NCBI RefSeq assembly: GCF_910592395.1
Contig: NC_088317.1
Span: forward strand, 3,348,001 to 3,412,000
Length of the DNA: 64,000 nt
Direction of reading: 5' to 3'
DNA from: Lineus longissimus
Lineage: Eukaryota > Nemertea > Pilidiophora > Heteronemertea > Lineidae
The translations under genes and the position numbers were made by a program. Positions 45,701-64,000 of this stretch are shown piece by piece. Numbering within the stretch: the stretch's first letter is position 1; the number at the start of each line of letters is the position of its first letter. The notes beneath the pieces were generated by a model, which was not told where the DNA came from, made no database searches, and was given only the letters and a program-made list of their open reading frames with translations.

Positions 45701-45887
45701 TCTTCTGTCTTCCACAACCTGAGGCTGGTGGAGCAGAAGGAGGACTAGCCCCCTATTTTTCACAGCCGGCGGCTGGTGTAGCAGGAAGAATAATCTACCG
45801 TTTTTCACAACCTGAGGCTGGTGAAGCAGAAGGAATAGTCCCGGTCTTTCACAACTTCTGGCTTGTGTAGCAGGAGGAATAGTACTC
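42765..45887. repeat. 45-bp minisatellite array, left part
   Basis: About 65-70 degenerate units; the plus-strand unit contains CTTTCACAACCTGCGGCTGG followed by TGTAGCAGGAGGAATAGTCC. Indels break any single frame, although minus-strand stretches stay open up to 291 codons (43458-44333). A non-repeat insert at 44769-44816 (AGGTAACCCCAATCCTATCC...) recurs at 46982-47030, so blocks were duplicated over long distance. Confidence 0.85.
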
Positions 45888-46944
45888 TGGGTGAGGTCAA
45901 ATCTCAGAGTTTACTAAGTGTTAACACCAGGTGTTAAGAAAGTGTTCCAAAACCCCGAGATTTGACCTCCTCACTTGACTCCTAGTTAACACTTTCTTAA
46001 CACCGAGTTGACACTAAGTTAACACTTGGTAGACACCTAGGGAACACTTTGATCGCTCAGGTGTTCCCTTAATCTGAGGAAGTGGCCAAGTGTTAAGAAA
46101 ATGCATTACAGATCGTGTACATCAGGTGTTAACCTCCTGGAGGTTAACACCAGTGAGAGGTCAATTCTCAGAGTTACAAAGGCAGCCATGTTTGCGATTC
46201 CTATGTTTCAAGTTGTTGCCCTAAGACATAATAGAAGAGCAGAGAACTTTCGGATAATAAAGTCGATGGAAAGAGTCAAAAAGTTCAAATAATTCACGAG
46301 AGTCCTTGAGTTTTAAACCAGGGTGCATATCATCTGTTGCAGCCCCTGAAGCCTGCTGTGTCTTGATGGCATCTCGATATTCCTTCCCTAGGTTCTTAAG
46401 CATATTTTCAACCACTTCGGCGTGGGTACCAACGTGGTTCCCTACTGCTGCATAAAATTCCTGGACCAGAGCATTCTTCTTGGCACGACGAAATGCCTCA
46501 TGGTGATCAATCACGTACTCAAGAGTTTGCATCCTCTTCTCGAGTGTCCACTGGAAGCGTTTCTTCCCCTTTCCGTCCATGATGACTGTTCAGATGACAG
46601 ACTTACACTAAAGATCTACGCATAGTCCAATTCAACCTCTCTTCAACATGGGCAAAGTGCCAGACCTGTGCAACCAGGAAACCAAGTGAAACTAACATCA
46701 TTATGTAACTGTGGCATGGATTATTTACCACTGACATGTGCCAGGCTTGGCACCTTGCCCATGTAGAAGTAAAGTATCTAGAAGGTGTTAGGAAAGTATT
46801 ATTCAAGTGTAATCTTGGTGTAACCCAGGTGTCACCAAGGTGTTAACCTGAACTTGGTGTCTAGGGTTCAGGTTAACACTTTTCACAGAGATTACACTTG
46901 GATAATCTAGGTGTAGAGTTAACTCTGAGATTTGACCTCACCCA
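45888..46944. mobile_element. 1057-bp DNA transposon inserted in the 45-bp array
   Basis: Ends are inverted repeats: TGGGTGAGGTCAAATCTCAG on the left and its complement on the right. Rows of GTTAAC-like motifs sit inside both ends. It cleanly interrupts the minisatellite (AGTACTC before, CTGTCTTTC after). A related 323-bp element occupies 25728-26050. One ORF of 119 codons lies inside. The duplicated target site is too short to define, so the superfamily is unknown. Confidence 0.75.
46221..46580 (-). CDS. Myb/SANT-like ORF inside the transposon
   Basis: 119 codons from ATG. The N-terminal part K-R-F-Q-W-T-L-E-K-R-M-Q-T-L followed by a helix with F-R-R-A-K-K-N-A-L-V-Q-E-F resembles the Myb/SANT-like DNA-binding modules carried by Harbinger-type and other DNA transposons. 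The remainder is charged and helical. No catalytic transposase is visible in the element, so it may be a non-autonomous element carrying only a DNA-binding accessory protein, or a decayed one. Codon spacing and the lack of stops support real coding. The family call is by eye. Confidence 0.5.
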   Translation of the reverse strand: MDGKGKKRFQWTLEKRMQTLEYVIDHHEAFRRAKKNALVQEFYAAVGNHVGTHAEVVENMLKNLGKEYRDAIKTQQASGAATDDMHPGLKLKDSRELFELFDSFHRLYYPKVLCSSIMS

Positions 46945-47875
46945 CTGTCTTTCACAACCGGCGGCTGGTGTAGCAGGCGGACTAGTCCAGGTAACCCCGA
47001 TCCTATTCGCCGCGCAGCGGAGACTGTTGAAAGAGTCTACAGGAGGACTAGTACTAGTCCCCTGTCTTTCACAGTCTGTTGCTGGTGTAGCAGGAGGAAT
47101 GGTCCCCTTGTCTTTATAGTCCATTGCTGGTGTAGCAGGAGGAATGGTCCCCTGTCTTTCATAGTCTGTTGCCGTTGTAGCAGGAGGAATGGCCCCGTCT
47201 TTCATAGTCTGTTGCTGGTGTAGCAGGAGGAATGGTCCCCTGTCTTTCACAGTCTGTTGCTGGTGTAGCAGGAGGAATGGTCCCCTGTCTTTCACAGTCT
47301 GTTGCTGGTGTAGCAGGAGGAATTGTCCCCTGTCTTTCATAGTCTGCTGCTGGTGTAGCAGGAGGAATTGTCCCCTGTCGTTCACAGTCTGTTGCTGGTG
47401 TAGCAGGAGGACTAGTCTCCTGTCTTTCACAGTCTGTTGCTGGTGTAGCAGGAGGACTAGTCTCCTGTCTTTCACAGTCTGTTGTTGGTGTAGCAGGAGG
47501 AATGGTCCCCTGTCTTTCATAGTCTGCTGCTGGTGTAGCAGGAGGAATTGTCCTCTATCTTTCACAGTCTGTTTCTGGTGTAGCAGGAGGACTAGTCTCC
47601 CGTCTTTCACAGTCTGTTGTTGGTGTAGCAGGAGGAATTTCCCCCTGTCTTTCACAGTCTGTTGTTGGTGTAGTAGGAGGAATGGTCCCCTGTCTTTCAT
47701 AGTCTGCTGCTGGTGTAGCAGGAGGAATTGTCCCCTGTCTTTCACAGTCTGTTGTTGGTGTAGTAGGAGGAATTGTCCTAGGTCTTTAACAATTTGTTGC
47801 TGGTGTAGCAGGAGGAATTGTTACATTATCTTTCACAACTTGCGGCTGGTGTAGAAGAAGGAATAGTCCCAAGGG
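46945..47875. repeat. 45-bp minisatellite array, right part
   Basis: About 20 tandem units of the same 45-bp family as 42765-45887, here more uniform. Plus-strand consensus includes TTTCACAGTCTGTTGCTGG and TGTAGCAGGAGGAATGGTCC. Because 45 is a multiple of three, several frames on both strands stay open for 200-290 codons. The minus frames read K-D-R-G-x-F-L-L-L-H-Q-Q-Q-T-V or G-T-I-P-P-A-T-P-A-T-D-C-E-R-Q. No flanking splice sites or start context single out one as a gene. Confidence 0.8.
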
Positions 47876-48290: not shown

Positions 48291-49270
48291 TCAATAATTC
48301 GGGCGCTCAGACTCTTCGTACCGTTCCCCTCGCATACTGCTACTCCTGCGGGGCATCTCTCCGTAACGCCGTCTGTGCGAACTCTGTTCGGTTCCCGAAC
48401 GACCCTTCTCAGCACCGCTACTTGATTGTGTCTCAGCCTCTTCGTTTTCTCCAGACGAAGACCCTCCTCTCTTCCTTCCATATGTTGTTTTAATTCCATG
48501 CGAGTTCGTTTGAACTCCATAAGACTTCGGCTTGTATGTTCTCTTGTTTTCACTTCCTCGTTTCTTTTTGGTTGCTGTTTTGGACATGTTCGTGTTGATT
48601 CCTTCTTTGGACATGTTCGTGTTGATTCCTTCTTTGGACATGTTCGCCTTGATTCCTTCTTTGGACATGTTCGTCTTGATTCCTTCTTTGGACATGTTCG
48701 CTCTGGTTGCTGTTTTGGACATGTTCGCTCTGGCTGCTGTTTTGGACATGTTCGCCTTGGTGGCTGTTTTGGACATGTTCGCCTTGGTGGCTGTTTTGGA
48801 CATGTCCGCCTTGGCTGCTGTTTTGGACATGTTCACTCTGGCTGCTGTTTTGGACATGTTCGCTCTGGCTGCTGTTTTGGACATGTTCGCTCTGGCTGCT
48901 GTTTTGGACATGTTCGTATTGGTTGCTTTTTTTGGTGTGTTCCCATTGGCTGCTGTTTTGGACACATGCTTCTCCAATGGGGTAGCTTTCGGCTCTTTTT
49001 TCTTAGTACCAATTGCGGACTTCTTATTTTTATTTGATTTGAGGTTCGACTTCTGTTTTGATGAAATAAACAATACTAATGGTTTGGGTACATTATTGTG
49101 TCCGATTTTGGATTTCGCAATTTTAGTCTTGTGAATTTTCTGAGCGACAGGTTTCGCCTGGTGGGATTTCTCGGTTGAAGACTTTGGTTTGGGTTTTGTT
49201 GCTTGTGCAGTCATTGGCAGGCATTTCATTAGTTTCGCATCCCACTCCTGTTTCGGTGGACACCTTGGCA
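48291..49270 (-). CDS. Giant gene terminal exon: Cys module, Met-Ser-Lys repeats, basic tail, stop
   Basis: Starts with R-C-P-P-K-Q-E-W-D-A-K-L-M-K-C, then a Lys-rich spacer. About 13 tandem 27-bp units follow (N-M-S-K-T-A-A-R-A, with later variants N-M-S-K-E-G-I-K). The tail is rich in Arg, Ser and Glu, contains short Y-G-R-K-R and R-R-R-Y-G stretches, and ends P-N-Y before TGA at 48291-48293. Acceptor CTCTTCAG, phase 1 in. Confidence 0.85.
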
Positions 49271-52200
49271 CTGAAGAGAGAGAAAGAGACAGCTAGAATG
49301 TAGCACACTGTAGTGGTGGTGGTGAGGCCGGGGGTGGGATATAGGAGATGAATAAGTTATGAAGACAACGTTTGTAGGAAGTACAGTGAGTGGTGGTGGT
49401 GGCGGTGGTGGTGTTGGCCAGTGGTGATGATGATGCTCCTGGTAGAGTGTGTGCGTATGTGTGTGTGCGTGTGGGGGTAGGGGGGGGGGGGGGGTAGGGT
49501 GGAGGGGGGGGGTTAGAGGAGACACTGGAGTGTTTACGTATACATGAATTGAGAAGAAAACAGGAAAGATGGTCTCTCACTAGTCATGATACGGATGGGA
49601 TGCCTTTGCCCCAAGTTGTCAAAACATGAAAAAGGGGGACGGACGATCTTCACAACTTACTCTCACAGATCTGTTTTGATCTGTTCCACACCATAGGCAG
49701 CATGCAATGCACTGAAATGCGATTGAAAGCGATATTCAAATGAGGGACATCCAAACTGTACACCTCCACTAGGTTTTTTCATTGGCTCAGAGTGATTTGC
49801 CGTTTTGGTCCAGGGTTCAGTTCAGAAGACAAATGCGTGCTTATCCCAGTCACGCAAGCGGTGCTTCTTTGACGAATTTTCCGTGACATCTTTGCAGTGA
49901 ATTACACCTAAATCGCAAGATATTTTCGCTAAATCTCACGTCGACAGATATAGTTGTTTGAGGAGTGCTGTTGGCTTTCAGTCACACCTCAACGGTTTGA
50001 GAAACAATTTCCCCCGAAGTGATAACGAGATTCTTCATCTTTCCTGTAATAGAGATTCATGAAATATTCATTTGAACTTACGTTTTACACAGCGACCAAG
50101 CTTGTCATTCCAAGTATTCATCGGAGGACACTTCTTCTCGGCAGCGGGTTTATGCTTCACTCCATGCGTCCCCTTATGTGTCAATTTGTTCTTATGCTTT
50201 ACTCCGGGTTTCGCTCTATGTTTGAAAACATCTTCATGTTTGACTGTGTGTGTTAAAAGGTGATTAGCTTTTGCATCATGATTTAACACAGGTGGTTTAT
50301 GTTTCAATCCATGTTTCCCTTTATGTTTGTGGCTCACTCCTTGATTCCCCTTTTTCGATGTGTGTTTGTGGTTATGCTTCAATCCATGGTTCAACCCGTG
50401 TTTACGTTTATGTCCATGTTTCCCTTGATGTTTCGATCCGGGTTTATGTTTATGTCCATGTTTCCCTTGATGTTTCGATCCGGGTTTATGTTTATGTCCA
50501 TGTATCCCTTGATGTTTCGATGCGTGCTTGTGCTTATGTCCATGTTTCCCTTGATGTTTCGATCCGGGTTTATGTTTATGCCCATGTTTCCCTTGATGTT
50601 TCGATCCGGGTTTATGTTTATGTCCATGTTTCCCTTGATGTTTCGATGGGTGTTTATGTTTATGTCCATGTTTCCCTTGATGTTTCGATCCGGGTTTATG
50701 TTTATGTCCATGTTTTCCTTGATGTTTTGATCCGGGTTTATGTTTATGTCCATGTTTCCCTTGATGTTTCAGTGCGTGTTTATGTTTATGTTTATGTTTC
50801 CCTTGATGTTTCGATCCGGGTTTATGTTTATGTCCATGTTTCCCTTGATGTTTCAGTGCGTGTTTATGTTTATGTCCATGTTTCCCTTGATGTTTCGATG
50901 CCTGTTTATGTTTATGTCCATGTTTCCCTTGATGTTTCGATCCGGGTTTATGTTTATGTCCATGTATCCCTTGATGTTTCGATCCGGGTTTATGTTTATG
51001 TCCATGTTTCCCTTGATGTTTCAGTGCGTGTTTATGTTTATGTTCATGTTTCCCTTGATGTTTCGATCCGGGTTTATGTTTATGTCCATGTTTCCCTTGA
51101 TGTTTCGATCCGGGTTTATGTTTATGTCCATGTTTCTCTTGATGTTTCGATGCGTGTTTATGTTTATGTCCATGTTTCCCTTGATGTTTCGATGAGTGTT
51201 TATGTTTATGTCCATGTTTCCCTTGATGTTTCGATCCGGGTTTATGTTTATGTCCATGTATCCCTTGATGTTTCAAAGCGAGCTTGTCTTTATGTCCATG
51301 TTTCCCTTGATGTTTCGATCCGGGTTTATGTTTATGTCCATGTTTCCCTTGATGTTTCGATCCGGGTTTATGTTTATGTTCATGTTTCCCGTGATGTTTC
51401 AAAGCGAGCTTGTCTTTATGTCCATGTTTCCCTTGATGTTTCAAACCGTGTTTATGTCCATGTTTCCCTTTTTGTTTCAATGCATGTTTATGCTCAAGTT
51501 TCAACCCATGTTTCCCTTGATGTTTTAATGAGTGAATACCTTTATGTCTTAAAGCGTATTGTCTCAGCTTTTGTCTTAGTAAATGCTTTATATGCGCCAA
51601 CCCGTGGTTTATCAACTCTATATGACTTTTTGCTTGATTGTGTAATGAAGGTTTGAGCTTCTGCTTCATCGCCATAGTCAACATTTTCTTATGTATCACC
51701 CCGTGTTTCAACAGTTTCTTCTGTTCATGTATGACAACAGAGCCTATTTTTTTAGACTTTTTCTTCTTCGATTTGCCGGATTTAAGATTCGTCTCAAGGC
51801 TACCGGTAATTTTCTTTTTCCCGGTCTTCCTCTTCCCTGAATGCTTCTTCCCAGCAAGCTTCTTCTTCTTTACTGAAAAGTAAAAATATCAGAATAGAGT
51901 ATTCCAACAAAATATCATCTGAATCTTTTACAGCACAGGGTGATTAAAAAATTCCAGACGGATCATCTCAGATCATACAAAACGTCCACATGTATTCTGG
52001 CGCTTACAGGCCTCCAGTGATGCTGAAAGGGTGGATGTCGTCCTGGGTACCGATAAATGGTACCCAGGTTCGAGATCGACTGGACAATAAGCACCCTGGG
52101 TGCCATTACACTAGACAAACAGCACCCAGCTTCTTTTTGCCTGGCCTGGCTCTAAGGGACGAGGACGTTTCTTGCAATCTCCTTCTCGCGCCGTGGTACT

Positions 52201-55200
52201 TGCGGCATTAGCAGTGCTCGAAATAAAAAGAACAGATGAGATAAACAGAAAAAAAGCGTTTAGGCCTATAGGTCTTTGAAAGCACATTTCGGATATATCC
52301 CTCCTATACCTTTCGGATATATCCCTCCTATATACCTTTTCTGAATAAATCATCCGAAATGTGCTTTCAAAGACCTTTAGGCCTAAACGCGTTTTTTTCT
52401 GTTTCTGTGTTCTTTTTATTTCGAGCACTGCTAATGCCACAAGTACCACGGCGCGAGATAAAACGAGATTGCAAGAAACGTCCTCGTTCCTAAGATCCGT
52501 AAGCCAGGCAAAAAGAAGCTGGGTGCTGTTTGTCTAGTGTAATGGCACCCAGGGTGCTTATTGTCCAGTCGATCTCGAACCTGGGTACCATTTGTCGGCA
52601 CCCAGGACGAGATCCACACTTTCAGCTCCAGTGATCAAGACATTTCCGTGGCCTTATGGTAATGGCAATGACCTTCGACGTCAGCGTCCCCGGTTCGAAT
52701 CACGCTACGGTCACTTTTTTAATTTTTTCCCGTGATTTTATTTTAATACCATTTTGTGTGTGAATACATTTATTTACTTATCATCATTTCAAAATAACTG
52801 ACGATATCATTTATTAGTTTTTTACCCTTGTTCTTGACACATTTTCTTGACTTTGTGTCCCATGTCTCGTCGGGTCGACACAGATCCTGCGGCTTTGGCT
52901 CACAGCGCTTTGTCTTGTCATTCCAGGCCTCCATTGGCTTACACCCTGGAAGCAAGAAATATAGAACAGGAATCTGTGAAGATAACAGAATAGAATACGA
53001 CCCCGACTAAAATAGAAAAGAATAGGTAGGATAATGCCTTGTTAGTTAAAATTGAAGCTAGGATTTTCATTTACCTCCATTTGCACACTCGAGAATTGCG
53101 ACCAAAAAACTACAATTTGCGACAAATATCATTTCGTTACCTTTGACACAGGCCCGTTTGTTTACATCCCATCTATCACCAGTTTTGCACAGACCAGTAG
53201 GCGGCTTCACACAGATCTTCTCCAAGTAGTTCCACACCATCGGGAAGTGGCATTGCGCTGAAAAAAATCATAAAGTCTATTTTATGACATTTGGACTTGG
53301 CATTGGGCAAACGCACCGGGAGATTAGTAATTTCAGTTACCACACATGAAATCAACGTTAAGGAAACAGGTCGCTTACCTCTTGATTTGGCAGCATGTTT
53401 GCCCTTAATTCCAACCTTGTTTACACCATTCTTAGTTTTGGCTTTAGTACCCTTCGAGCTCTTGCTAGGTTTCGCCCCAGGTTTCTTGCTCTTCCCATGT
53501 TTTTTCCCGACCTTCTTGCTCTTGCCGTGTTTGGCCCCAGGTTTCTTGCTCTTCCCATGTTTTGTCCCGACCTTCTTGCTCTTGCCGTGTTTCGCCCCAG
53601 GTTTCTTGCTCTTCCCATGTTTTGTCCCGACCTTCTTGCTCTTGCCGTGTTTCGCCCCAGGTTTCTTACTCTTCCCATGTTTTTTCCCGACCTTCTTGCT
53701 CTTGCCGTGTTTCGCCCCAGGTTTCTTGCTCTTCCCATGTTTTTTCCCGACCTTCTTGCTCTTGCCGTGTTTCGCCCCAGCTTTCTTGTTCTTCCCATGT
53801 TTTTTCCCGACCTTCTTGCTCTTGCCGTGTTTCGCCCCAGCTTTCTTGTTCTTCCCATGTTTTTTCCCGACCTTCTTGCTCTTGCCGTGTTTCGCCCCAG
53901 CTTTCTTGCTCTTCCCATGTTTTTTCCCGACCTTCTTGCTCTTGCCGTGTTTCGCCCCAGCTTTCTTGCTCTTCCCATGTTTTGTCCCGGCCTTCTTGCT
54001 CTTGCCGTGTTTGGCCCCAGCTTTCTTGCAGGACCCCTTCTTTGCATACTGTACCACACTCTCCGGATGATGAGCAGAAGCCCTTGTTGCCTTTATTCTC
54101 GTGTATGACGATTCGTGCAACTTGCATTTCTTCTCAGCGCCATGCCAGTCAACGGCAGTGCATTTCTTCCTCTTTTTACAATAGTCCCGACAGAAAGCGG
54201 AGCTCCAGGTGCGGCCATTTTGTTTAGATATCAAAATGCCTCCAAGAGCGTGAGAGTGATCGTAGAGCTTCATGCATCCAGATGACGGTGCAAAGGGAAT
54301 TGGTTTGGCTGAAATGATCAAACCGTGGAGCAATATAAACAATTAAATAAGTACCCGCATCAAAAAGTCCAAATTTAGCGGCAAATGTCTCTGAAGTCAA
54401 TTTTGCATCGGCGTTAATCCGCAAGGCTGGTCATAATGAGTAAAGCGGTGGATATATGTTTGGGAGGATGTCAACAGCAAAGCTCAAATAAAATGCTTTC
54501 ATGTAGCCCTTAAACTTGACGACAATTGTTACCTTTGGCGACACACCTCTCCTTCCTAGAGTGCCACTTTGCGCCTTTGTAACATCTAGGGTGACATTTG
54601 CCCCCCTCGATAATGTAATTGTCCATGCAACCTCGAGAAAACAAAATGGAAGATCATATTAGACGCTGAATGACGAAAAATTATCCTCCAACTACGGGCT
54701 ACCCTTAGGCTTCATCGTTTTTTAAAAGAACCAACTAGAAACGACAAGGTTACATGTACATTACAACTATAAGCAGTAAAAGAAGAAGAAGGAGAAGAAT
54801 AATGAAAAGAAAAAGCGGAAGGAAGCTCCAACCAGTCTCTCCGCGCCATCTCACCTCCTTTCTTCGTGCTCCTCGATATGTAACTCAGCAGCCGGTTCCA
54901 CCAAGACTCAGTCGAATGGATCCCTTTCCTGGTATAATTCTTCGGGATCAGCTTCCTCCAGAATCTGACATCATCATGCTTTCCGGACGCAATATACAAA
55001 ATATGGACCTTCTTCGCAATAATTTGCCGTAAAGTAGTCTTCATTGCCTTTCCATCGCCATTTTTGGCTTTGAATGCGCCAAAAATCAAAATGGCTGCTT
55101 TCGCCTTGGACTTGAATAAGTTTCCCTTCGAGACAACCTTCGCTGCTTTCACCAAGAGCGCTTGGTTCTGGGATTTACCAACTTCGTAAACGAGACTCAA

Positions 55201-58200
55201 GAACTTCGTGCGTTGACCGAATGCCTTGGTATCTGTGGGGAGCTTGAAGTGTTTTATTGCACCAGCCAAAGAGATTAAGATTTCTACTTTCAGTTTCTTT
55301 GGGCCAAAGGCGAAGTCTTCCAGAAGATCGCGGATGGCCTTTTGGATTTTCTTGAAGTTTTCCCTGCCCGTGTCGCTTGAGGCATCTACAACAAGCAGTA
55401 GGTTCAGCTCGATTTTTCTTCTGTGATCTGGAAGTAAGAATAACATTGAAAGATTATATTTTTGATACACGTAAATGTACCTTTTTTGAGAGAGGCGACG
55501 TGGTATAGTGCGTCGACATCCTGACTGAAAACACTACACACAGTACGCAGCCAGACTGCGCTCACTTGAACAGCCTCGGCACGTCAAGGATGTTAGCCAT
55601 CTATACGATCGTTTTCATTAGGGGATATCACTCTTGAATTTGCAAACTCTATTTCCTTACCATGACATTTCCCTTCCTTGGCGTACTGAGCAATAGATCC
55701 CGGGTGCTTTGAGTACTTCTTGGTCGCCTTCATCGGCTTGAAGGACGACGTATGCAACAGACAGGCTCGCTCAATCGCCTTCCAATCCACTGCCAGGCAC
55801 TTCGGGTTGATTTCGCAGTAGTCTCGGCACAGTTTAGACGTCCACTTCTTCCCCGAAGGGTTTGGAATCTTCTCGGAACCCTGGCCTAACTTGTGCGGGT
55901 AAAGCTTCATACAACCTGGAAAAAGTGTTAAAATAATGTACACATCCAAATTGATGTCATCAACAGTTCGGAAGAAGTAAACTACGGGACAGCAATGTCA
56001 ACTCTCACGAAGTTTTCCGAATTAGAGAAACGTGCATTACCTTTGCTTGGAGCAAGTGGTCCGTTTACATCTCCAGCTGAAAGAAAAAAGGCGAAGTGTC
56101 AGCATTCGCCACTTTCCTAACGAAAATTAACATATTGTCAATACTTTCTCGTGATTCGTCCTTCCGTAAAGGCTGCGCTGGTGAAGTCGGTTTTAGACCC
56201 TCTGATTGGCCATTACATGCATCTTGATATGACTAGAGATCTAACCAAATGTTAACCATTCTCCAATCTTCGCCATCGGTACTGTTCGATAAGAGCCTAC
56301 TTGTTCAGTTAACCGAGCACTTGAGTACTACTCGCAGATTCGGCGTGAATTAAACCAATTGAATGCTGCTGTTGGAAAGCCCTGGAGGGATTGTCGTGAA
56401 TGTTTCCCTACCTCTGACGCATCTCTTCGCCTTCTTATCGTATTCTTGTTCCTTGGCACACGTATCAGCCTTGGGGAGCTTCACCACACACATATTCTTC
56501 TTCAGCTCGTAACCGTCCATGCAGTCTAGGAGAAGGAGGACAACACGTATATACTGGTTGAATGTTACCTTTTTGCAACAGTTATAGCCGCTGGACTAAT
56601 TGTGACTTTATCATGGTCAAAGAGAGGTTGTACATGGTCACCGCATAACTAGTCAGCGACTGTCACAGCCGTTGTTGTCGTGGAGTTGAGATAAGGCCGC
56701 GAAGGAATTAATATCCCGTATGTATTTCATGGGCATACGTAAGCCAAATTACTCAAAGATTCTCCGAAATGACATCTTTGTCTGAGTAGCACTACATGTA
56801 TCACTGGAAGGCATTATCAATGATTTTGTTGAAAGAAAACGAAAACAAATGGTTTTCTCTGATGCATTCTGTCCAATGCGATATAATTCTTTAAGCGGGC
56901 AAGAAACAAACTAGCAAAGATTTCCGAATAGCGTACTCACTCCCGAGTCCCTATATAAAATACATACTGTTTTTGGCGATGACTTTCATGATCTTGTTGA
57001 GCCTACTGCGTATGCCTTGGAGAGTTAGCCGCATCCTACTGATGATGTGGTTCATATGGAGCTCTTGTCTCCAGAAAGTTCTTTCTACCTTCCTCCCGCT
57101 TATCATGTAGAAGATGAATACCCTGAAGTAGACGAATGAAAATATAAAACATTGTTTGCGCTTGATCCCATATGACCATTATCGATAGCACGGGAACGTT
57201 TATACGCGCCTAATGGTCTATCAGCGCATGAGTGCATCCCGAGTCCCCAACCTTTAAAAAGCAACACTAAATCGACGGCTATACACATTTTAAAATTATA
57301 TTACCAACGAAAAGTGAATGCTGAGATGTTTCGAATACAAACCCGTTTTAAATCGAAGAAAAATTAAAACTGAAAAGCAGCTTTACCTGTATGAGGAAAT
57401 CAACTTCAACTCTGTACTGACATCGGTCTTTGCTCTTCGTTTCGGCTTGAAGCTTCCCATTAAGAAGGCGACGCGCTTGACCCCACGCCGGACAAACAAA
57501 TCTTTGCGCCCAACAACCTGATGCAACGCCTCCATCATACTCATAACATCAGGCTTCGATCCCGTGTACTCCAAACTACTAATCTGCTTCGCAAACTCCT
57601 TGGTTCTCTTTCCTGATTGGCTGTCGAGAAATTGAAATTGATGCGTGCGCCTCCCACAAACGATGACGTATATTCGAAGTGCACTTTTACTGATGACGTA
57701 GTTCTCAAGAATCAGTGTCGTGAACCGCTTGATGTCGTTGAACTTTTCTCTACCCGTGTTGCTTGAACCATCGATGACGATGATGAGGTCTAGGACGATT
57801 CGACTTTTCTTCATGATGACACATCGCTTGCCATTCCAGACTTGGGGGTGTTTGCATTTGTTTAGGGCTCCTAGAATAAAAGAAAACACACTTTAAACTA
57901 CTAAGTGTTTCGAATGTCATTTGACTAAATACGCCTTGGTAAAATTTCAGAAACGACATGCTTCTAGCCAACCGGTGAAAGAGTTTGAATTTGACCTAGA
58001 TAGAGTATCAGAGGGCCAAAGTGTTCTATCACACGCTATTACGCTCTGAGGTACTGTCGATAATTGTCACCATAAACCGATTTTTCCTCATTTTTGCAAT
58101 ATCGAGAGAGAGGTCAAACTATTTTGAGTCCGTACCTAGACACATTCCTTTCTTCTTGTCTTTGTAGTAGCCTCGCATACAGCCTGCATGACCAGAGAAA

Positions 58201-61200
58201 GATATCGTCAATTAGTTAACTGTAAGGAAAGAATGTCAATAAAATGATGATATTTTTTCGTTTCTTTATTGCTTCTTAACATAGCAAGACGAAAAAGATT
58301 CTTTATGACTCGACGGGAACGACAGCGTGGGCTATTCACCAAGGTGATCTCTGTGCGCAATTAATGAACTGAGAGTACACAAAATGCAGAAGAGAAGAAC
58401 AATTTCGAACCTTTCTTCCTCATGACCGACATCACATCAGCCATGAATCCCTTGAACCACCTCAAACTCCCCATTGTCCGCGTCTGAATGTTGTACTTGT
58501 AAATTACTTTCGTCCAGAACGGTACATCAGTCTTTGCTCCGTACGCCAAGTAATAAACATGGGCAGTGAGACCGACCAGTTGCTTCACCCAGTTGGTGAC
58601 CAAAGTGCGCTTGTCCCTCTCAATCCGGCAGCCCCCGAGCATGAAGATGGCTGTTCCGACATCCTTTCGATGAAAGCCTTTTCTTCCGGAACGTTTCACC
58701 AGGAATTTGAAGGAATCGGACGTTTGGAGTGTGGCATCAACGTACGGGAATTTCGAGGCTATATTTGCTTTGGCTTTTTTCAGAACCTGTTAATAAAGAC
58801 ATGAAAGAAAAGACTCCGTCATCCGAATTCTTCATGTAAGATGCGCGCGCAATGAATGGTTTTTGACGGCCTCGTGCACTATCATCGTGCAGTAATCAGC
58901 CAAATACTCCGATCGATCGTAGTGCATCAAGCAGTGGTTACATAAACAAGCAGTGTCGAATTCTACAGGGAACCTAGAGGAACCAGGTACATTAATGCTA
59001 TCCTTAAGCTCATTGCTTATCAAGACGTTTGGGGTGGTAGGCTAGATGAATACTCTAATCAACTACTGTTGGTAACAATCTCTCGCATCTTTTGTTCTAC
59101 ATGTACCTGAATGCTTCTCGTGTCGTTTATCTTCAGCATCTGCACCTTCCTCCCAGCGTAGATGATCTTGAGGGTGAGGTACTCCTTGCTGATGAGGTAG
59201 TTGTCCAGGAGATAGAGAAGGAGCTGCTTCACCTTGGAGTAGTGGACCTTACCTGTGTTCACCGAGGCATCTATGATTACCACGAGGTTCAACTTCAGTT
59301 TGATTCGCTTGTTCACTGGAAGTAGTTTCTTGATATAAGAAGTCATACACGTGCAGGTTTTTTCACACATAAGAACAACATTAAAAGGTTACAGAGAGTT
59401 CATCTAATGTCCCATTTTTCACTTGTCAACAACATCATTGTTTTGTTCTTCGTGTACAATTTGATATTTTAGAAATAAGAATATGTTCCTGAATGTGGTT
59501 GCATCCGAAATGGGGAACCATGCTGCGGATGAAAGCAAACTGCGTGAAGATGAAAGCAACTTTTGGGAGACCCTATCAGTTTCATAATGATGACGATGAT
59601 GAAACTACAGATACTCTACGCAGTGGTACCTTTTCCTTTTCCAATGCACCTGTTCTTGGTCAGTTTGTATCCCTTTGCACAGCTCTTTTTTCCAGTGACC
59701 TCGTAGATGGTGTTCATGACCTTGATGAACCATATCAACTTCGGTTGGACGTTGTCGAATACGTAGCCAACTGGTAACGCCTTCTTCCAAAACACATCAT
59801 CTGTCTGCAACGGGAAATGTCGCAACGTCAAATAATGCACGATGTTGGTGTCTAAAAGTCCTAGAACGCTTCCACAATCCTTCTATACCACTTTTATAGG
59901 ATACCCGATTTGCATTGAAACACCCAGCGCAACAAAAATAGACGATCAATGGATTCTACTTCCGGGAGGTACATGCACACTTCGAGTATGAGATTGATAA
60001 AACCACGATCGTATAACGACGAAAATCAAAAGCCGAGCCAATATCAATCGGGTGACTTTGGACAGGAAAGGCCTTATTAAAGTATTTTTACCTTCTTTCC
60101 GTATGCCATATAGAACATGAAAGTCCTGTAGGACAAGATATTCTGTACTAGTGCAGTTGTCTGCTGTCCCCTTGCACCCTCCGTCTGAAGGGCCCCAAAC
60201 AGCAGTATGACCCTACTGACTCCGGGCCTCAGGAACTCCTTATCCCTGACCACCTCCAGTACCTTGCCAAGGATCAGCCCGACGTGTGATTTAGACTTGG
60301 CGTAAAGGACCTCACGCACCTCGTTGATGTATTGTGCGGTGACGACCTAAAAGGCAGAATACGTGTATCTCTCACCCACATTTTTCAACTAGATAGAACA
60401 TCACAATCACAACAAAAGAATATACGACAGCGTCTTCCATGTGTTCGGATCATTAGGGTATGTTTTGTTTCAGATCTTCCTCAAACTCATACGACAGTCT
60501 TCAGAACCGCGTGGGTAACGTACGCTGTTAAAATTGGTGTTCGAGATTGTCCAAACCTTGCTCAGCTCCATGGCCTTCAGGTAAAGTAGTTGCAACCGGA
60601 ATCTCTGATCGGAGATCGGCGAAGGGGCTCTAGTCTGGGCCGAGGGGTGTATACAGGTTGCTCAGGCTTACTGAACTGATTAGTGGCCAGCGTAGGAGGA
60701 ATTGTCTTGGATCTCCTCAGGGCCGTTCCCTTCCTCTATCAAAAACTTCTTTAACAATTTCACCAACCTGGTCGTTGCCTCCATAGAACCTATACGTATG
60801 CAACCGATGACCCCACGAGATGAGGAACACCCTCATATACTTCTGTGAGATCTGATAGTTGGTCAGGAGGTAGATGACGAACTGCTTGAGTTGGTCGAAC
60901 TTCTTCCTCCCAGTTGCCGAGGAGCCATCAAGCACTACCATCACGTCAATCACTTCCTTGATACGCTTACTCACTGAACCTGATGAGAAAAAGAATTGAG
61001 TAGTGGCAAAAAGTGATAGGGACTAGTCTTTATTAATTCACCAAATGAGGGCTAATGTCTCAGGGGTTTGTGTGCAGTGCCGGAGCGACGAAGAGTTTCC
61101 CCGATTCCTCATGGCGCCCCACTCTCTCCACACCTTGCTGTAGCAAAGGTCAATACCAGTGTTTAGATAAAGAGTCAATCGGCTGAATGATTGTGCAGAT

Positions 61201-63994
61201 GTTTTAGATCTTCAATCCAGACTACATAAACAACTCTGACATACCAGCGGTCTTCGTGGCGATGCATGCGGTTCCTCTGGGTGTTCTTCCAGGCATACAT
61301 TCTGAAAATTAGAGGGGATTCAAATCTGTTGTACATTTACATTGTGTATACATGGATTATCAATCCTTACGTAAAAATCATGCTTGATAAAATGAGAATA
61401 CAGTTTTCTATTGATGCAATGGAAATGAAAGGAAGACATCTATCCGGGATGGTGCCAAATAGCTTCGAGAAGTTCCGAAGAAGAGCAGATTTGTCATCAG
61501 AGCAGGAGTAACTGGCTACCTCGTGAAGAAGGGGAGAAAGGAGAAGGAGAAGGAGAAGGAAGAAAGAAGAAGGAAGCAACCACAAACCTTCGTTCCGAAC
61601 AAGCCCCATGATGTATTTCATCGTCTTTACGACAAACTTGGTGTCCGCTGTGACGGAGCCTTCAAGGAGGTAGGCCTCGGAGATGAACTGGTTCCAAAAA
61701 GGCACGTTGGGGTTGGAGCCCATGGGAAGATAGAACACTAGGAGTTTCTGCGTGAGGACCTCCTTGATCATCATTCCGCTGACCTTGGCTCTGTTGGTCT
61801 GATCCACGGAGACGCCGCCGAGGAAGAGAATTGCTCGCCTCACGCCAGTCCGCTTTAGCTTCTTGGACTTGAGGCTTTTGGTGAGCAGTTCTATGGCATC
61901 TACTGAGTCGTGCTTTACCCCAGAATATCTGCAATTGATAAAAAGAGGATACCGCGATAAGTACATGTATACATATTTGACAGGAATGGTAGGGCTAATA
62001 GTACCATAGCGGCGATATTTCAGCATACTCAGCTGAGAGTAAAGGTTGATGACCTATTTGGTGTCTTCTCAGAATGTGAAGGTTGCTATTCAAGGTAACC
62101 CAAGACCATGTATCTGAGGTCAAGTAAAAAGGACCGCATAGTCTCCTGCCTGTTTCTACCATTCACGGCATAACCAAAAGGTACTTCATCGCTCCAGAAT
62201 ATGCCTCCTTTTGCATGCACGTTCCCCTTTTATTGCTCCATTAACAAACAAAGCCTGTTGCTCTCGATTCGCGAACGGCAATTAAGTGATTTTAAGAGCA
62301 TCGTTCAATAAGATAAATTCTCTGCCTACATGATGGGCAGACCAAACCTATACTTACTTGATAACATGGGCCTTGGCTAAATATTTCTTCCTATCCTTCT
62401 TGGTGAATATATGATACTGCTGCGCCGCACCGGCGTTCAACACCAAGAATATCCTCAAGTGATCACGGTCAATCCTGTAATGTTCCGTCAAAACTGAGAT
62501 GAATTTAAAACATCGCTGAAAGTTTGCCTTTCCTGTATTTTTCGTTGCATCTAACACTATTATCAAATCAAGTTTTAGCCTTGCACGCTTGTGTATCCTT
62601 CCTTTCTTCCCATGCACATGTCTTTTTTTTGGCTTTCGTTTCTTTTTTCTTTTCTTCGGTTTTCGCGTTAACTTTCTCTTTTTCTTCTTAGATGTGCCTT
62701 TCTTCTTTGACCCTGTAGATTTGGAGTGACCCTTTTTCTTGTCAGCTCTACATTTGTTCAGGCTGGCGTGCCACCGCTTTCCCTTTGGACATTTATGTCC
62801 TGAAAAATGATAACACCGAATACCGTATCAGCAGATTAATAGAGGCAGCATTCATCTCCCCATACCTTGCAGTTCTTCTTCGAGCAGCACTGGCGATACG
62901 ATAAGCTACTCTCCTTACCATAGTGTGACCCCTGTTACAGTCTGACCCCTCACCATAATGTGATCCCTTACCATAGTGTAATCCCCGCCATAGTCTGATC
63001 CCTTACCATAACGCGATCCCTTGCCATAGTGTGACTACTTAACATAGTGTGAAAACTTACCACAGTGTGACCACTTACCATAATGACATAGCCTTGTCCG
63101 AAGTGTCCCAACTATTTTATCCAACTGGTTGAAATCCGCCACAGTGAGGACATGCTTGTTATCCGTGGCCATATTGGCGACCTCTGCCACATCGATCCGC
63201 CTTCCGATACCAACCGTGTAGACCACTATGCCAGAGGACTTCACTTGGTGCATGATAGACTGTAACTTGGAACGGTCCGTGGCCAGACCGTCCGACAGGA
63301 TGACTGCTATCTGTAAATAGGTTTCGGATCAAGCCGATCAGCAACCTTTTGGCCTACCCTAATGCCGTTCTGGAGAAGCACCTAAACTATGCAGACAAGG
63401 ATTTCACATTCATTCCAAGACAAATTTTACCTCCTTCGACGAGAAACTTGGTAGCATATAGAAGCATATAGAAGCCAAAGAACTTTAAAACCACCTTGCC
63501 CGTAAGAACTTTTTGAAATTTAGGTCAATTCTTTGGCTAAGTTAGTTCCCCTCAGAGACCTTTTGTCACAATGACAATTTTGATGGCAAGAAATTTCTCA
63601 GAATGCCCCAGTGTGCAGGGTCTTGGCAGAACCTTACTCTTGTGACATTGGGCCTGCCTCCAACTTGCTTTGTAAATGCTTTGTTGATGAGGATACCCAT
63701 CCCCTTCGCCAGATAGGAATCACCTTTGCTGTACTTGGTCCGCCTGATAGCTTTGATTAGGGCATCCTGGGATCCATAACTGGAAGGAACAATCGATGTG
63801 AACAATTTTGAATCAATTTCGAATAGAATAACGGTATTTCAGGCTCAATCAATAGATCAATATGTCTAAGAACGTGTTATGTCGTATGAACAACGTATGG
63901 AAGAGGATTGGTCGCGCTGATAGTCATACACAAACACTAATATGCCGTTTTTTTCTAATAGTCGTATAAAACTTACATTTTGATAAAAAATTTT
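48291..63994 (-). CDS. Giant secreted VWA/PAN-like/Cys-module protein with Lys-His repeats (5'-incomplete, 23-24 exons)
   Basis: One minus-strand gene. I chained the exons 63977-63994 (tentative), 63638-63779, 63079-63310, 62358-62799, 61588-61928, 61245-61301, 60768-60979, 60092-60346, 59630-59804, 59107-59315, 58411-58786, 58136-58183, 57387-57870, 56968-57122, 56412-56525, 56041-56076, 55661-55915, 54855-55427, 54533-54631, 53379-54308, 53141-53257, 52826-52945, 50082-51872 and 48291-49270. Every junction uses AG/GT and keeps frame, giving about 2,700 codons ending in TGA. Domain order: VWA1, then five degenerate VWA domains separated by short Cys modules, PAN-like 1 between VWA5 and VWA6, PAN-like 2 after VWA6, then three basic repeat arrays separated by more Cys modules. 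Most domain borders are phase-1 introns, typical of extracellular shuffled modules. The start, signal peptide and first half of VWA1 lie beyond the window. Family unrecognised; an extracellular structural role is inference. Confidence 0.85.
49310..49520. repeat. GGT/GT/poly-G simple sequence
   Basis: GGTGGT triplets, a GTGTGTGCG stretch and long G runs on the plus strand (C-rich on the coding strand), inside the last intron of the giant gene. G-quadruplex formation is possible on the plus strand. Confidence 0.7.
49521..50081. other. Remainder of the last giant-gene intron
   Basis: No exon, repeat or conserved element seen, apart from the donor of the 50082 exon at its right edge. Confidence 0.5.
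50082..51872 (-). CDS. Giant gene exon: His-Lys repeat array and Cys module
   Basis: A 1,791-nt exon of about 597 codons. A Lys-rich lead-in is followed by about 26 tandem 42-bp units, consensus H-Q-G-K-H-G-H-K-H-K-P-G-S-K with variants A-S-K and A-L-K. A less regular His/Lys tail and the Cys module C-P-P-M-N-T-W-N-D-K-L-G-R-C close the exon. His and Lys together make up most of the array, so metal binding or pH-dependent assembly is a reasonable inference. Acceptor TTTTCAG, donor GTAAGT, phase 1-1. The long antisense frames are by-products of the repeat. Confidence 0.85.
52022..52626. mobile_element. Foldback, Mutator-like non-autonomous DNA transposon with 9-bp target duplication
   Basis: A 605-bp element whose two arms of nearly 300 bp are inverted copies meeting near 52300-52340. 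Ends GCTGAAAG and CTTTCAGC. Flanked by identical 9-bp direct repeats TCCAGTGAT at 52013-52021 and 52627-52635. Long terminal inverted repeats plus a 9-bp duplication fit Mutator-like elements. No transposase frame. It lies in an intron of the giant gene. Confidence 0.75.
52646..52710 (+). other. tRNA-like sequence (SINE head or tRNA relic)
   Basis: Has a B-box GGTTCGAATC at 52692-52701 and an A-box-like segment after 52650. The ends CCGTGGC and GCTACGG can pair as a 7-bp acceptor stem. The T-arm does not pair well and the total is only about 65 nt, so a working tRNA is unlikely. Confidence 0.35.
52826..52945 (-). CDS. Giant gene exon: four-Cys module
   Basis: Encodes C-K-P-M-E-A-W-N-D-K-T-K-R-C and then C-R-P-D-E-T-W-D-T-K-S-R-K-C, the clearest pair of C-x5-W-x6-C modules. 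Phase 1-1, acceptor CTTCCAG, donor GTAAAA. A foldback transposon lies in the next intron. Confidence 0.85.
53141..53257 (-). CDS. Giant gene exon: four-Cys module
   Basis: Encodes A-Q-C-H-F-P-M-V-W-N-Y-L-E-K-I-C, then L-C-K-T-G-D-R-W-D-V-N-K-R-A-C. Two copies of the C-x5-W-x6-C type module. Phase 1-1, acceptor TTTTTCAG, donor GTAACG. Confidence 0.8.
53379..54308 (-). CDS. Giant gene exon: PAN/apple-like domain 2 and Lys-His-Gly repeat array
   Basis: About 310 codons. A second PAN-like domain (G-C-M-K-L-Y, C-R-D-Y-C-K-K-R-K-K-C-T-A-V-D-W) is close to the one at 55661. It runs straight into about ten copies of a 60-bp (20-residue) repeat made of two 10-residue halves, consensus K-K-x-G-x-K-H-G-K-S. 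The units are nearly identical in DNA, so the array expanded recently. The product here is extremely basic, with almost no acidic residue. Ends phase 1, donor GTAAGC. Confidence 0.85.
54533..54631 (-). CDS. Giant gene exon: four-Cys module
   Basis: Encodes C-M-D-N-Y-I-I-E-G-G-K-C-H-P-R-C then G-A-K-W-H-S-R-K-E-R-C. It combines the C-M module and the C-x5-W-x6-C module. Phase 1-1, acceptor CTCGAG, donor GTAACA. Confidence 0.8.
54855..55427 (-). CDS. Giant gene exon: complete VWA6
   Basis: A whole VWA-like domain in one exon of 190 codons: L-L-L-V-V-D-A-S-S-D-T-G (MIDAS fifth position Asp), V-E-I-L-I-S-L-A-G, A-A-I-L-I-F-G-A-F replacing T-D-G, and H-I-L-Y-I-A-S-G with V-R-F-W. All internal introns of the sister domains are absent, so it may be a processed or intron-loss copy. 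Ends phase 1 at GGAG, donor GTGAGA. Confidence 0.85.
55661..55915 (-). CDS. Giant gene exon: PAN/apple-like domain 1
   Basis: About 85 residues starting G-C-M-K-L-Y and ending G-K-C-H-G. The core C-R-D-Y-C-E-I-N-P-K-C-L-A-V-D-W followed by A-C-L-L-H resembles the Cys pattern of PAN/apple (and WSC) domains, which bind proteins or carbohydrates outside cells. Six Cys in total. Phase 1-1, acceptor TTTCCAG, donor GTAAGG. Confidence 0.8.
56041..56076 (-). CDS. Giant gene microexon (linker)
   Basis: A 36-nt phase 1-1 exon encoding A-G-D-V-N-G-P-L-A-P-S-K-G, a flexible linker before the first PAN-like domain. Acceptor TTTCTTTCAG, donor GTAATG. Being phase 1-1, it could be skipped without loss of frame. 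Confidence 0.65.
56412..56525 (-). CDS. Giant gene exon: double Cys module
   Basis: Encodes C-M-D-G-Y-E-L-K-K-N-M-C, then a linker and C-A-K-E-Q-E-Y-D-K-K-A-K-R-C-V. This is a four-Cys unit like those at 54533 and 53141. Phase 1-1, acceptor CTCCTAG, donor GTAGGG. Confidence 0.8.
56968..57122 (-). CDS. Giant gene exon: VWA5 C-terminal end
   Basis: Restores frame from phase 2: V-F-I-F-Y-M-I-S-G-R-K, then R-T-F-W-R-Q, matching the F-W segment of the sister domains, and a final helix. Ends phase 1 with donor GTATGT. Acceptor ACTTCAG. Confidence 0.8.
57387..57870 (-). CDS. Giant gene exon: Cys module and most of VWA5
   Basis: Begins with C-K-H-P-Q-V-W-N-G-K-R-C. The VWA follows with L-I-I-V-I-D-G-S-S-N-T-G (MIDAS fifth position Asn), R-I-Y-V-I-V-C-G, and R-V-A-F-L-M-G-S-F in place of T-D-G. 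The intron that splits VWA3 and VWA4 is missing here. Ends phase 2 with donor GTAAAG. Confidence 0.85.
58136..58183 (-). CDS. Giant gene exon: short Cys module
   Basis: A 48-nt phase 1-1 exon encoding G-C-M-R-G-Y-Y-K-D-K-K-K-G-M-C-L. Two Cys flank a Lys-rich loop, like C-M-D-G-Y in the exon at 56412. Acceptor ATGCAG, donor GTACGG. Confidence 0.75.
   Translation of the reverse strand, partial: AVCEATTKTRRKECV
58411..58786 (-). CDS. Giant gene exon: VWA4 C-terminal half
   Basis: 125 codons. The strand T-A-I-F-M-L-G-G-C again lacks the T-D-G motif. It is followed by H-V-Y-Y-L-A-Y-G-A-K-T-D-V-P-F-W and a closing helix ending M-R-K-K-G. The donor GTTCGA is weak; I kept it because it gives phase 1 and the C-terminal boundary seen in VWA2 and VWA6. 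Acceptor TAACAG. Confidence 0.75.
59107..59315 (-). CDS. Giant gene exon: VWA4 N-terminal half
   Basis: Encodes L-V-V-I-I-D-A-S-V-N-T-G, a VWA first strand with MIDAS DxSxS altered to D-A-S-V-N. A helix and the strand L-K-I-I-Y-A-G-R follow. Ends in phase 0 at CAG, donor GTACAT. Acceptor CTTCCAG. The intron position matches VWA3. Confidence 0.8.
59630..59804 (-). CDS. Giant gene exon: VWA3 end and Cys module
   Basis: Starts T-D-D-V-F-W-K-K, matching the V-P-F-W segment of VWA2 and VWA4. It finishes the last VWA helix and adds the Cys module C-A-K-G-Y-K-L-T-K-N-R-C. Ends phase 1 with donor GTACCA. This domain carries its Cys module in the same exon, unlike VWA2 and VWA4. Confidence 0.8.
60092..60346 (-). 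CDS. Giant gene exon: VWA3 central part
   Basis: 85 codons in phase 0-0. It aligns with VWA5 by eye: the helix before the third strand, then S-R-V-I-L-L-F-G-A-L in place of the canonical strand ending T-D-G, then F-M-F-Y-M-A-Y-G-K-K. Acceptor TTTTAG, donor GTAAAA. Confidence 0.8.
60768..60979 (-). CDS. Giant gene exon: VWA3 N-terminal half
   Basis: Encodes V-M-V-V-L-D-G-S-S-A-T-G-R-K-K-F, a VWA first strand with MIDAS DxSxS altered to D-G-S-S-A. An amphipathic helix and the strand R-V-F-L-I-S-W-G follow. Ends in phase 0 at CAG with donor GTTGGT, at the same position as the intron in VWA4. Acceptor is TCATCAG. Confidence 0.8.
61245..61301 (-). CDS. Giant gene exon: short Cys module
   Basis: A 57-nt phase 1-1 exon encoding C-M-P-G-R-T-P-R-G-T-A-C and a short tail. 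It starts with the C-M motif that also begins the modules at 58136, 56412 and 54533. Acceptor TTTTCAG, donor GTATGT. Frame was chosen by phase and by the shared C-M-x-G/N pattern. Confidence 0.65.
61588..61928 (-). CDS. Giant gene exon: VWA2 C-terminal half
   Basis: Continues VWA2: R-R-A-I-L-F-L-G-G-V replaces the MIDAS strand normally ending T-D-G. Then L-L-V-F-Y-L-P-M-G and V-P-F-W-N-Q, a strand plus a conserved F-W shared by all the degenerate VWA domains here. I end the exon at GAAG with the weak donor GTTTGT because that phase 1 fits the next Cys-module exon and the sister exons. Without splicing, the frame runs on into a Leu-rich stretch. Confidence 0.75.
62358..62799 (-). CDS. Giant gene exon: Cys module, very basic linker, VWA2 N-terminal half
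   Basis: Starts with the Cys module C-P-K-G-K-R-W-H-A-S-L-N-K-C. About 55 residues of Lys/Arg-rich linker follow, then a VWA strand with L-I-I-V-L-D-A-T-K-N-T-G. The MIDAS motif DxSxS is degenerate (D-A-T-K-N). Ends in phase 2 with donor GTAAGT. The linker resembles a nuclear-type basic tract, but the surrounding Cys modules argue for an extracellular protein. Confidence 0.85.
62915..63078 (-). repeat. Tandem array of splice-donor-like sequences in the VWA1/VWA2 intron
   Basis: About nine imperfect units of roughly 19 bp read on the minus strand as ACTATGGTAAGGGATCA and variants. The genuine donor at 63073-63078 (ATG then GTAAGT) is the first unit. Several units keep GTAAGT, GTAAGG or GTGAGG, others carry GGCAAG or GTTAAG. 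The array looks like repeated duplication of the exon-intron border. Confidence 0.7.
63079..63310 (-). CDS. Giant gene exon: VWA1, C-terminal part
   Basis: Begins I-A-V-I-L-S-D-G, the third MIDAS motif (T/S-D-G). It continues through V-V-Y-T-V-G-I-G-R-R, the typical VWA strand 'vftIGvG', and ends after a Cys with phase 1. Acceptor TTTACAG, donor GTAAGT. The donor is followed by a tandem array of similar donor-like sequences in the intron (62915-63078). Confidence 0.85.
63638..63779 (-). CDS. Giant gene exon: VWA1, middle part
   Basis: Encodes 47 codons starting Y-G-S-Q-D-A-L-I-K-A-I and including K-G-D-S-Y-L-A-K-G, the position of the MIDAS Thr/Ser loop of VWA domains (usually GGT-T-x-x-A-L). 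It ends G-G-R-P-N-V-T-R just before the central beta strand. Acceptor CAG after 63779, donor GTAAGG. This VWA keeps a plausible metal-binding layout, unlike the five downstream ones. Its DxSxS exon must lie beyond 64000. Confidence 0.8.
63977..63994 (-). CDS. Tentative 18-nt microexon of the giant gene (VWA1)
   Basis: Flanked by TTACAG and GTAAGT on the minus strand. Read in the phase required by the next exon (ending two bases into a codon) it gives K-F-F-I-K-I joined to Y-G-S-Q. That fits the usual VWA run into the segment before the Thr-containing MIDAS loop. It lies at the window edge, so its upstream context is unseen. A chance AG/GT pair is possible. Confidence 0.4.
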
Positions 63995-64000
63995 CTGTAA

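Follow-up and report, generated by a model that had tools for sequence, protein, structure and literature searches.

Gene Structure and Domain Content

The 64,000-nucleotide stretch of the Lineus longissimus genome analyzed here (NC_088317.1, positions 3,348,001 to 3,412,000; "the window", the numbering of which is continued beyond its end) harbors on its minus strand a very large gene encoding a modular, probably secreted protein. It is located on chromosome 10 (C10:3412704 to C10:3396291), with the ATG at 64704, i. e. 704 bases beyond the window end, and the stop at 48291. The minus-strand reading together with the flanking DNA affords 26 exons encoding 2,821 residues, whereof 24 exons (E3–E26) and 2,731 of 2,822 codons (stop counted) lie inside the window (Table 1). 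An earlier note on this DNA had described 23 exons with about 2,700 codons in perfect frame; frame and codon number hold, while the exon count has to be raised to 24. The 5' exons sought by the note were located past the window as E1 and E2, the former with an N-terminus (MTGLLLVLGILSFVAAASAG) that by eye resembles the signal peptide it had asked for. All 25 introns are of the GT-AG type and the frame is kept at every junction. The chain is supported by splice sites, phase and module similarity. Phase-1 introns, the usual mark of exon-shuffled extracellular modules, make up 18 of the 25 in the gene model and account for most of the divisions of its VWA and PAN modules. E5 contains no in-frame Met and VWA2 therefore requires an upstream exon. 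The weakest junction is E19/E20, because the acceptor of E20 ends in GAG; skipping E20 would still keep the frame. A prokaryotic or viral origin was ruled out, as the gene is intron-rich and resides on a 19.4 Mb animal chromosome.

Domains were assigned with a Pfam scan of nine pieces of the protein that do not extend into E24–E26, array 1 or the greater part of the basic stretch in E5. Five of the six VWA domains exceed the cut-off (VWA1, E 1.9e-37; VWA2, 1.6e-7; VWA3, 2.6e-12; VWA5, 1.4e-11; VWA6, 4.3e-7). VWA4 gave no Pfam VWA match and is assigned through its kinship in the tree described below. The VWA fold was recovered in a fold comparison with the VWA domains of collagen VI among the matches and VWF A1 as a close one, and a sequence search of PDB up to E 1 returned only collagen VI alpha 3 (E 0.24). 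Both PAN domains surpass the PAN_1 cut-off of 21.4 bits (22.4 and 26.4 bits), contain six Cys each and are 49% identical to each other. The "about a dozen" small Cys modules of the earlier note amount to 16 two-Cys modules of the C-x(10-12)-C type, with four exons holding two each. For E22, two β-hairpins are predicted (predicted local distance difference test 81, predicted template modelling score 0.42). The six VWA-type domains, two PAN-like domains and three different basic arrays that had been read from the DNA were all recovered.

Table 1. Exons of the gene (window numbering, continued beyond 64,000) and related loci in the same genome.
Feature	Position	Strand	Basis
Exon 1, signal-peptide-like MTGLLLVLGILSFVAAASAG	64704-64635	(-)	Beyond window end; splice sites and phase
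Exon 2	64326-64125	(-)	Beyond window end; splice sites and phase
Exon 3, mid VWA1	63638..63779	(-)	Splice sites and phase; Pfam VWA on residues 1-239 (E 1.9e-37)
Exon 4, VWA1 end	63079..63310	(-)	Splice sites and phase; Pfam
Exon 5, Cys module CPKGKRWHASLNKC, Lys/Arg-rich stretch (62749-62582), VWA2 start	62358..62799	(-)	Splice sites and phase; 3' part equals NCBI LOC135495038
Exon 6, VWA2 end	61588..61928	(-)	Splicing; Pfam; NCBI LOC135495038
Exon 7, Cys module CMPGRTPRGTAC	61245..61301	(-)	Splicing; NCBI LOC135495038
Exon 8, VWA3 part 1	60768..60979	(-)	Splicing; Pfam; NCBI LOC135495038
Exon 9, VWA3 part 2	60092..60346	(-)	Splicing; Pfam; NCBI LOC135495038
Exon 10, VWA3 end and Cys module	59630..59804	(-)	Splicing; NCBI LOC135495038
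Exon 11, VWA4 part 1	59107..59315	(-)	Splicing; NCBI LOC135495038; tree kinship, no Pfam VWA match
Exon 12, VWA4 part 2	58411..58786	(-)	Splicing; NCBI LOC135495038; tree kinship
Exon 13, Cys module	58136..58183	(-)	Splicing; NCBI LOC135495038
Exon 14, Cys module and VWA5 part 1	57387..57870	(-)	Splicing; Pfam; NCBI LOC135495038
Exon 15, VWA5 end	56968..57122	(-)	Splicing; NCBI LOC135495038
Exon 16, two Cys modules	56412..56525	(-)	Splicing; NCBI LOC135495038
Exon 17, linker of 12 residues	56041..56076	(-)	Splicing; NCBI LOC135495038
Exon 18, PAN1	55661..55915	(-)	Pfam PAN_1 over cut-off (E 1.1e-4); splicing; NCBI LOC135495038
Exon 19, whole VWA6 in single exon	54855..55427	(-)	
Exon 20, two Cys modules, weak GAG acceptor	54533..54631	(-)	Splicing; absent from NCBI model
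Exon 21, PAN2 (54279-54028) and basic array 1 (54018-53449)	53379..54308	(-)	PAN_1 (E 6.2e-6); repeat analysis
Exon 22, two Cys modules	53141..53257	(-)	Splicing; predicted fold
Exon 23, two Cys modules	52826..52945	(-)	Splicing
Exon 24, His/Lys array 2 (51441-50434) and Cys module	50082..51872	(-)	Splicing; repeat analysis
Exon 25, Cys module	49661..49711	(-)	Splicing
Exon 26, Cys module, array 3 (48914-48564; contains N-x-S sequons), C-terminal end and stop	48291..49270	(-)	
Related loci (Mb)	C4:4.74, C13:16.26, C13:1.13, C5:21.6, C10:13.95, C13:0.705, C10:1.16		

Three repeat features accompany the gene. Intron 23 contains a long inverted repeat (52015-52633; 131-nucleotide arms, 95% complementary, with further nested arms), which looks like a foldback or miniature inverted-repeat transposable element. 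The intron that follows exon 4 carries an 18-bp tandem repeat (62913-63082) reaching into the last bases of this exon, and several 45-bp minisatellite arrays that are open in more than one minus-strand frame follow just downstream of the gene (42765-47870).

Metal-Site Loss and Related Loci in the Same Genome

VWA2–6 have lost the metal site. An intact D-S-S-T-D site is found in 0 of the 6 copies in this gene versus all 6 ordinary VWAs compared from this genome, the latter having been picked by their D.S.S pattern. The position of these domains was assessed in a maximum-likelihood tree of 22 VWAs, for which 6 of 13 extracted ordinary VWAs were used, with 5 duplicates, a truncated domain and another copy set aside. 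VWA2–6 and the domains from C10:1.16, C4:4.739, C13:16.26 and C13:0.705 stand apart from the other 13 rows with a support of 100/100, in a tree that is unrooted in substance, has long end branches and carries a flag for odd composition on the C4 and C13 rows. The metal site is likewise absent from the domains of these four loci. VWA1 falls among the ordinary VWAs with a support of 93/86, which is below the tool's own mark.

Own-genome searches yielded at least 13 matches for VWA6 with its Cys modules, four of them in this gene, and at least 31 matches up to E 0.1 for PAN1, two of them in this gene. Pooling of 12 of the 13 VWA6-search rows (the own Cys-module row was dropped), 18 of 18 rows of a further search and 31 of 31 PAN1 rows gave at least 12 VWA loci and at least 19 PAN loci. 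A PAN lies within 10 kb of six of the 12 VWA loci (this gene counted) versus 0.013 PAN loci expected under uniform placement, in a set where several VWA loci are single weak matches and the searches list best candidates only. Besides this gene, a PAN of the same kind occurs at most 10 kb away at the loci C4, C13:16.26, C13:1.13, C5:21.6 and C10:13.95. If the family is defined, as done in this analysis, by a VWA2–6-like domain together with a PAN of the same kind, the gene belongs to it.

The sister loci differ from the gene in their arrays wherever the DNA is readable. On C4, the order comprises a start that by eye resembles a signal peptide, four PANs, two VWAs and an Ala-Pro-Thr-Glu (APTE) array; the C4 PAN tested reaches 19.7 bits, i. 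e. less than the Pfam cut-off of 21.4. Because the sister VWAs of C4 and C13 gave no Pfam match over cut-off, their kinship derives from the own-genome searches and the tree. Gly/Ser-rich stretches flank the VWAs at C13:0.705 and C13:16.26, in the latter case with all three frames open and hence an unproven reading frame. The locus at C10:1.15-1.19 Mb may exceed the gene of the window in size. It holds, in one or more genes, VWAs, two fn2 domains that pass the cut-off, weak PANs that do not, Lys/Ala/Pro arrays and about 49 Cys hairpins of the CKKGETMVKGKCEK type, one stretch of which scores as TIL. A further cluster on the same chromosome (C10:3.827-3.847 Mb) consists of one or more genes with alternating VWA and EGF domains, including a 1,036-residue open frame mostly made up of near-identical EGF repeats. 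It was ruled out as a tandem copy, given this alternation and the position of two tested domains outside the VWA2–6 group.

Judged by its sequence, the gene is a giant representative of a small, as yet unnamed family, in which VWAs lacking a metal site and PANs are paired with gene-specific low-complexity arrays. The earlier note knew of no named family with this order of modules, and this stands, although the gene is not alone but has relatives in the same genome.

Composition and Basic Arrays

The mature protein (2,801 residues, 315 kDa, isoelectric point 10.5) is rich in basic residues, with 19.1% Lys, 7.6% His and 4.8% Arg versus 5.5% Asp and Glu. This results in a net charge of about +514, His not counted. 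It also contains 49 Cys and 16 N-glycosylation sequons, 12 of which are within array 3. The repeat units are a 20-residue Lys/His/Gly unit in array 1 (E21), a 14-residue His/Lys unit in array 2 (E24) and a nine-residue unit of the NMSKTAARA type in array 3 (E26). Among the codon differences between units of array 1, 41 of 65 are synonymous versus about 20% expected and change is mostly at third positions, so that this array is coding and constrained. For arrays 2 and 3, the exons are long and open, and their in-frame ends are unique. With array 2 as query, only the gene itself and a weaker match were obtained, i. e. a 542-residue open frame at G000:C8:8761624-8763114 (C8:8.762 Mb) that contains a His/Lys-rich array 46-49% like array 2.

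Public Gene Model and Homologues

Residues 300-1492, searched against 5.8 billion proteins (E ≤ 0.001), gave a single match, the "uncharacterized protein LOC135495038 [Lineus longissimus]" of NCBI with 1,150 residues. Over 1,136 residues it is identical to residues 324-1459 of the model described here. This letter-for-letter identity confirms 14 of the 25 junctions (E5/E6 to E18/E19) by another pipeline. LOC135495038 spans approximately 62570-54715 and is cut at both ends, and the other 11 junctions are therefore based on splice sites, phase and module similarity. Its first seven residues originate from an out-of-frame ATG within E5; at the other end, seven residues are read from an alternative acceptor after E19, at position 54735, and a stop follows. 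Compared to the full model, it is devoid of the signal peptide, VWA1, the first part of VWA2, PAN2, the three arrays and the C-terminus. Regarding homologues elsewhere, the protein searches gave, besides LOC135495038, only one VWA protein of the snail Bulinus truncatus (26% identity, E 4.5e-24). This is weak evidence for a true absence, because a protein comes within reach of such searches only if its length is 0.55-1.75 times that of the query and the two have short words in common. The locus had been called undescribed, which is partly wrong, as its middle part is present in NCBI; in the literature searched, no paper names LOC135495038, and the listed matches on nemertean VWA, PAN, mucus and pseudocnida structural proteins, as far as their accessible text goes, contain nothing on this protein.

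Possible Function and Alternative Explanations

Beyond the gene structure over E5–E19, the modules, the charge, the loss of the metal sites and the family, all of which are observed, the role of the protein is inferred. With a probability of roughly one half, we propose that a single gene encodes a scaffold of about 315 kDa, polycationic and without enzymatic function, which would be secreted and cross-link anionic mucus or adhesive polymers. The whole exon chain would yield one secreted product, in which the VWA and PAN modules may act as folded protein- or glycan-binding nodes that need no bridging metal ion, while the Cys hairpins could serve as rigid spacers. The Lys/His arrays would bind sulfated or acidic glycans electrostatically, with His conceivably adding pH- or metal-dependent binding. 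The scaffold may thereby cross-link anionic glycans in slime, mucus, adhesive or a proboscis or gland secretion, to which the sister loci with Gly/Ser, Ala-Pro-Thr-Glu or Cys-hairpin arrays could contribute further components of the same kind. VWF A1 binds anionic glycans although its metal site does not work. According to the accessible text of PMC9229212, the Lys-rich repeat proteins of flatworm glue are believed to attach to an anionic or Kringle-bearing cell surface, and attachment was abolished by heparin. In view of both precedents, cross-linking of anionic glycans is favored. The flatworm proteins ap1 and ap3 resemble the protein described here in being large and repetitive with Lys-rich repeats; they differ in that ap1 contains C-lectin, EGF, VWD, C8, TIL and VWC domains, none of which was matched in the scanned pieces, and ap3 Gly-Arg-Lys repeats (PMC9229212, same part).

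Several points weigh against this proposal. The binding of anionic glycans by a polycation would here follow from charge alone. "VWA", "von Willebrand" and "lysine" are absent from the main texts of two toxin-focused papers on nemertean mucus. With LOC135495038 stopping after VWA6, independent support does not extend to PAN2, the arrays or the C-terminal half. Only 8 of 43 codon differences in array 2 (19% expected) and 7 of 37 in array 3 (22% expected) are synonymous, and as this is no excess, constraint on these two arrays is not demonstrated. The earlier view of one giant modular extracellular protein fits the evidence, while the full chain is not independently proven.

Two or more products have to be weighed, namely a VWA/PAN protein that ends after VWA6, as LOC135495038 does, and beside it a basic protein from the C-terminal part, either separate or alternative. 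The end of LOC135495038 via the alternative acceptor and the GAG acceptor of E20 would be in line with such a split, as would a Met-led hydrophobic open stretch (53070-52942) in a frame different from that of E23, which is a possible spliced start. However, queries with exons 1–5 (candidate lengths of approximately 199-633 residues) and exons 18–26 (approximately 901-2867) retrieved no separate N- or C-terminal gene model of L. longissimus from the protein collection, the missing in-frame Met in E5 ties this exon to an upstream one, and PANs as well as Cys modules are found on both sides of the break, which leaves this arrangement with a real yet minor chance. Somewhat less probable is an internal extracellular-matrix protein of the collagen VI or matrilin sort, located in the body wall or basement membrane rather than being a gland product. 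While the repeated VWAs and the collagen VI matches by fold and sequence would fit, neither collagen nor EGF was matched in the scanned pieces, the metal sites of VWA2–6 are lost, and the charge of +514 together with the low-complexity arrays is, to our knowledge, unlike matrilins.

Kinship with mollusc Pif/BMSP, which would make the product a matrix protein of biomineral or chitin, seems very unlikely. The Cys modules of E22 and E23 give a weak CBM_14 match (E 0.0013) that with 19.2 bits stays below the cut-off of 22.1, another scanned piece reaching 11.0 bits. CBM_14 has six Cys versus two in each of the modules here, laminin G was not matched in the pieces scanned, and we know of no shell in nemerteans. 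Because no chitin-binding domain exceeds the cut-off in the pieces scanned, membership in a shell matrix is unsupported. Proteins with VWA and chitin-binding domains are reported across lophotrochozoans, nemerteans among them, in the available part of PMC11291548; the likeness to Pif/BMSP described there extends to the extracellular location, VWA domains, low-complexity stretches and, in some, basic residues, while PANs and lost metal sites set the gene apart. A slim chance, finally, is left for a structural protein of the pseudocnidae, the extrusible proboscis organelles of many palaeo- and pilidiophoran nemerteans. In the accessible text of PMC7897414, their structural compounds are described as uncharacterized and the authors consider an adhesive role likely, and a disulfide-containing family with Gly/Ser and basic arrays in a pilidiophoran genome would be a reasonable candidate, but the sequence gives no pointer to capsules over slime. 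The matrix or adhesive role suggested earlier fits in general, with mucus, proboscis secretion and adhesive remaining, whereas shell, chaeta, jaw and byssus have become less plausible guesses, the animal being a nemertean.

As an extension of the polycationic scaffold, a nemertean matrix toolkit is conceivable, if doubtful. The same metal-free VWA/PAN nodes would carry oppositely charged or silk-like arrays, i. e. the Lys/His polycation of this gene, Ala-Pro-Thr-Glu on C4 and Gly/Ser on C13. Complementary members may meet upon secretion and set by polyelectrolyte complexation into slime or the pseudocnida body, the structural compounds of which PMC7897414, in the part available, calls uncharacterized.

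Taken together, the gene is placed here with the VWA matrix proteins, to which it adds a distinct domain group and a new architecture, and its public model proves to be cut short. It provides an added case of VWA domains without metal site that are multiplied in repeat-rich, probably secreted proteins. Little is known of the structural proteins that make up nemertean slime and pseudocnidae, and a concrete gene family is now at hand for testing.
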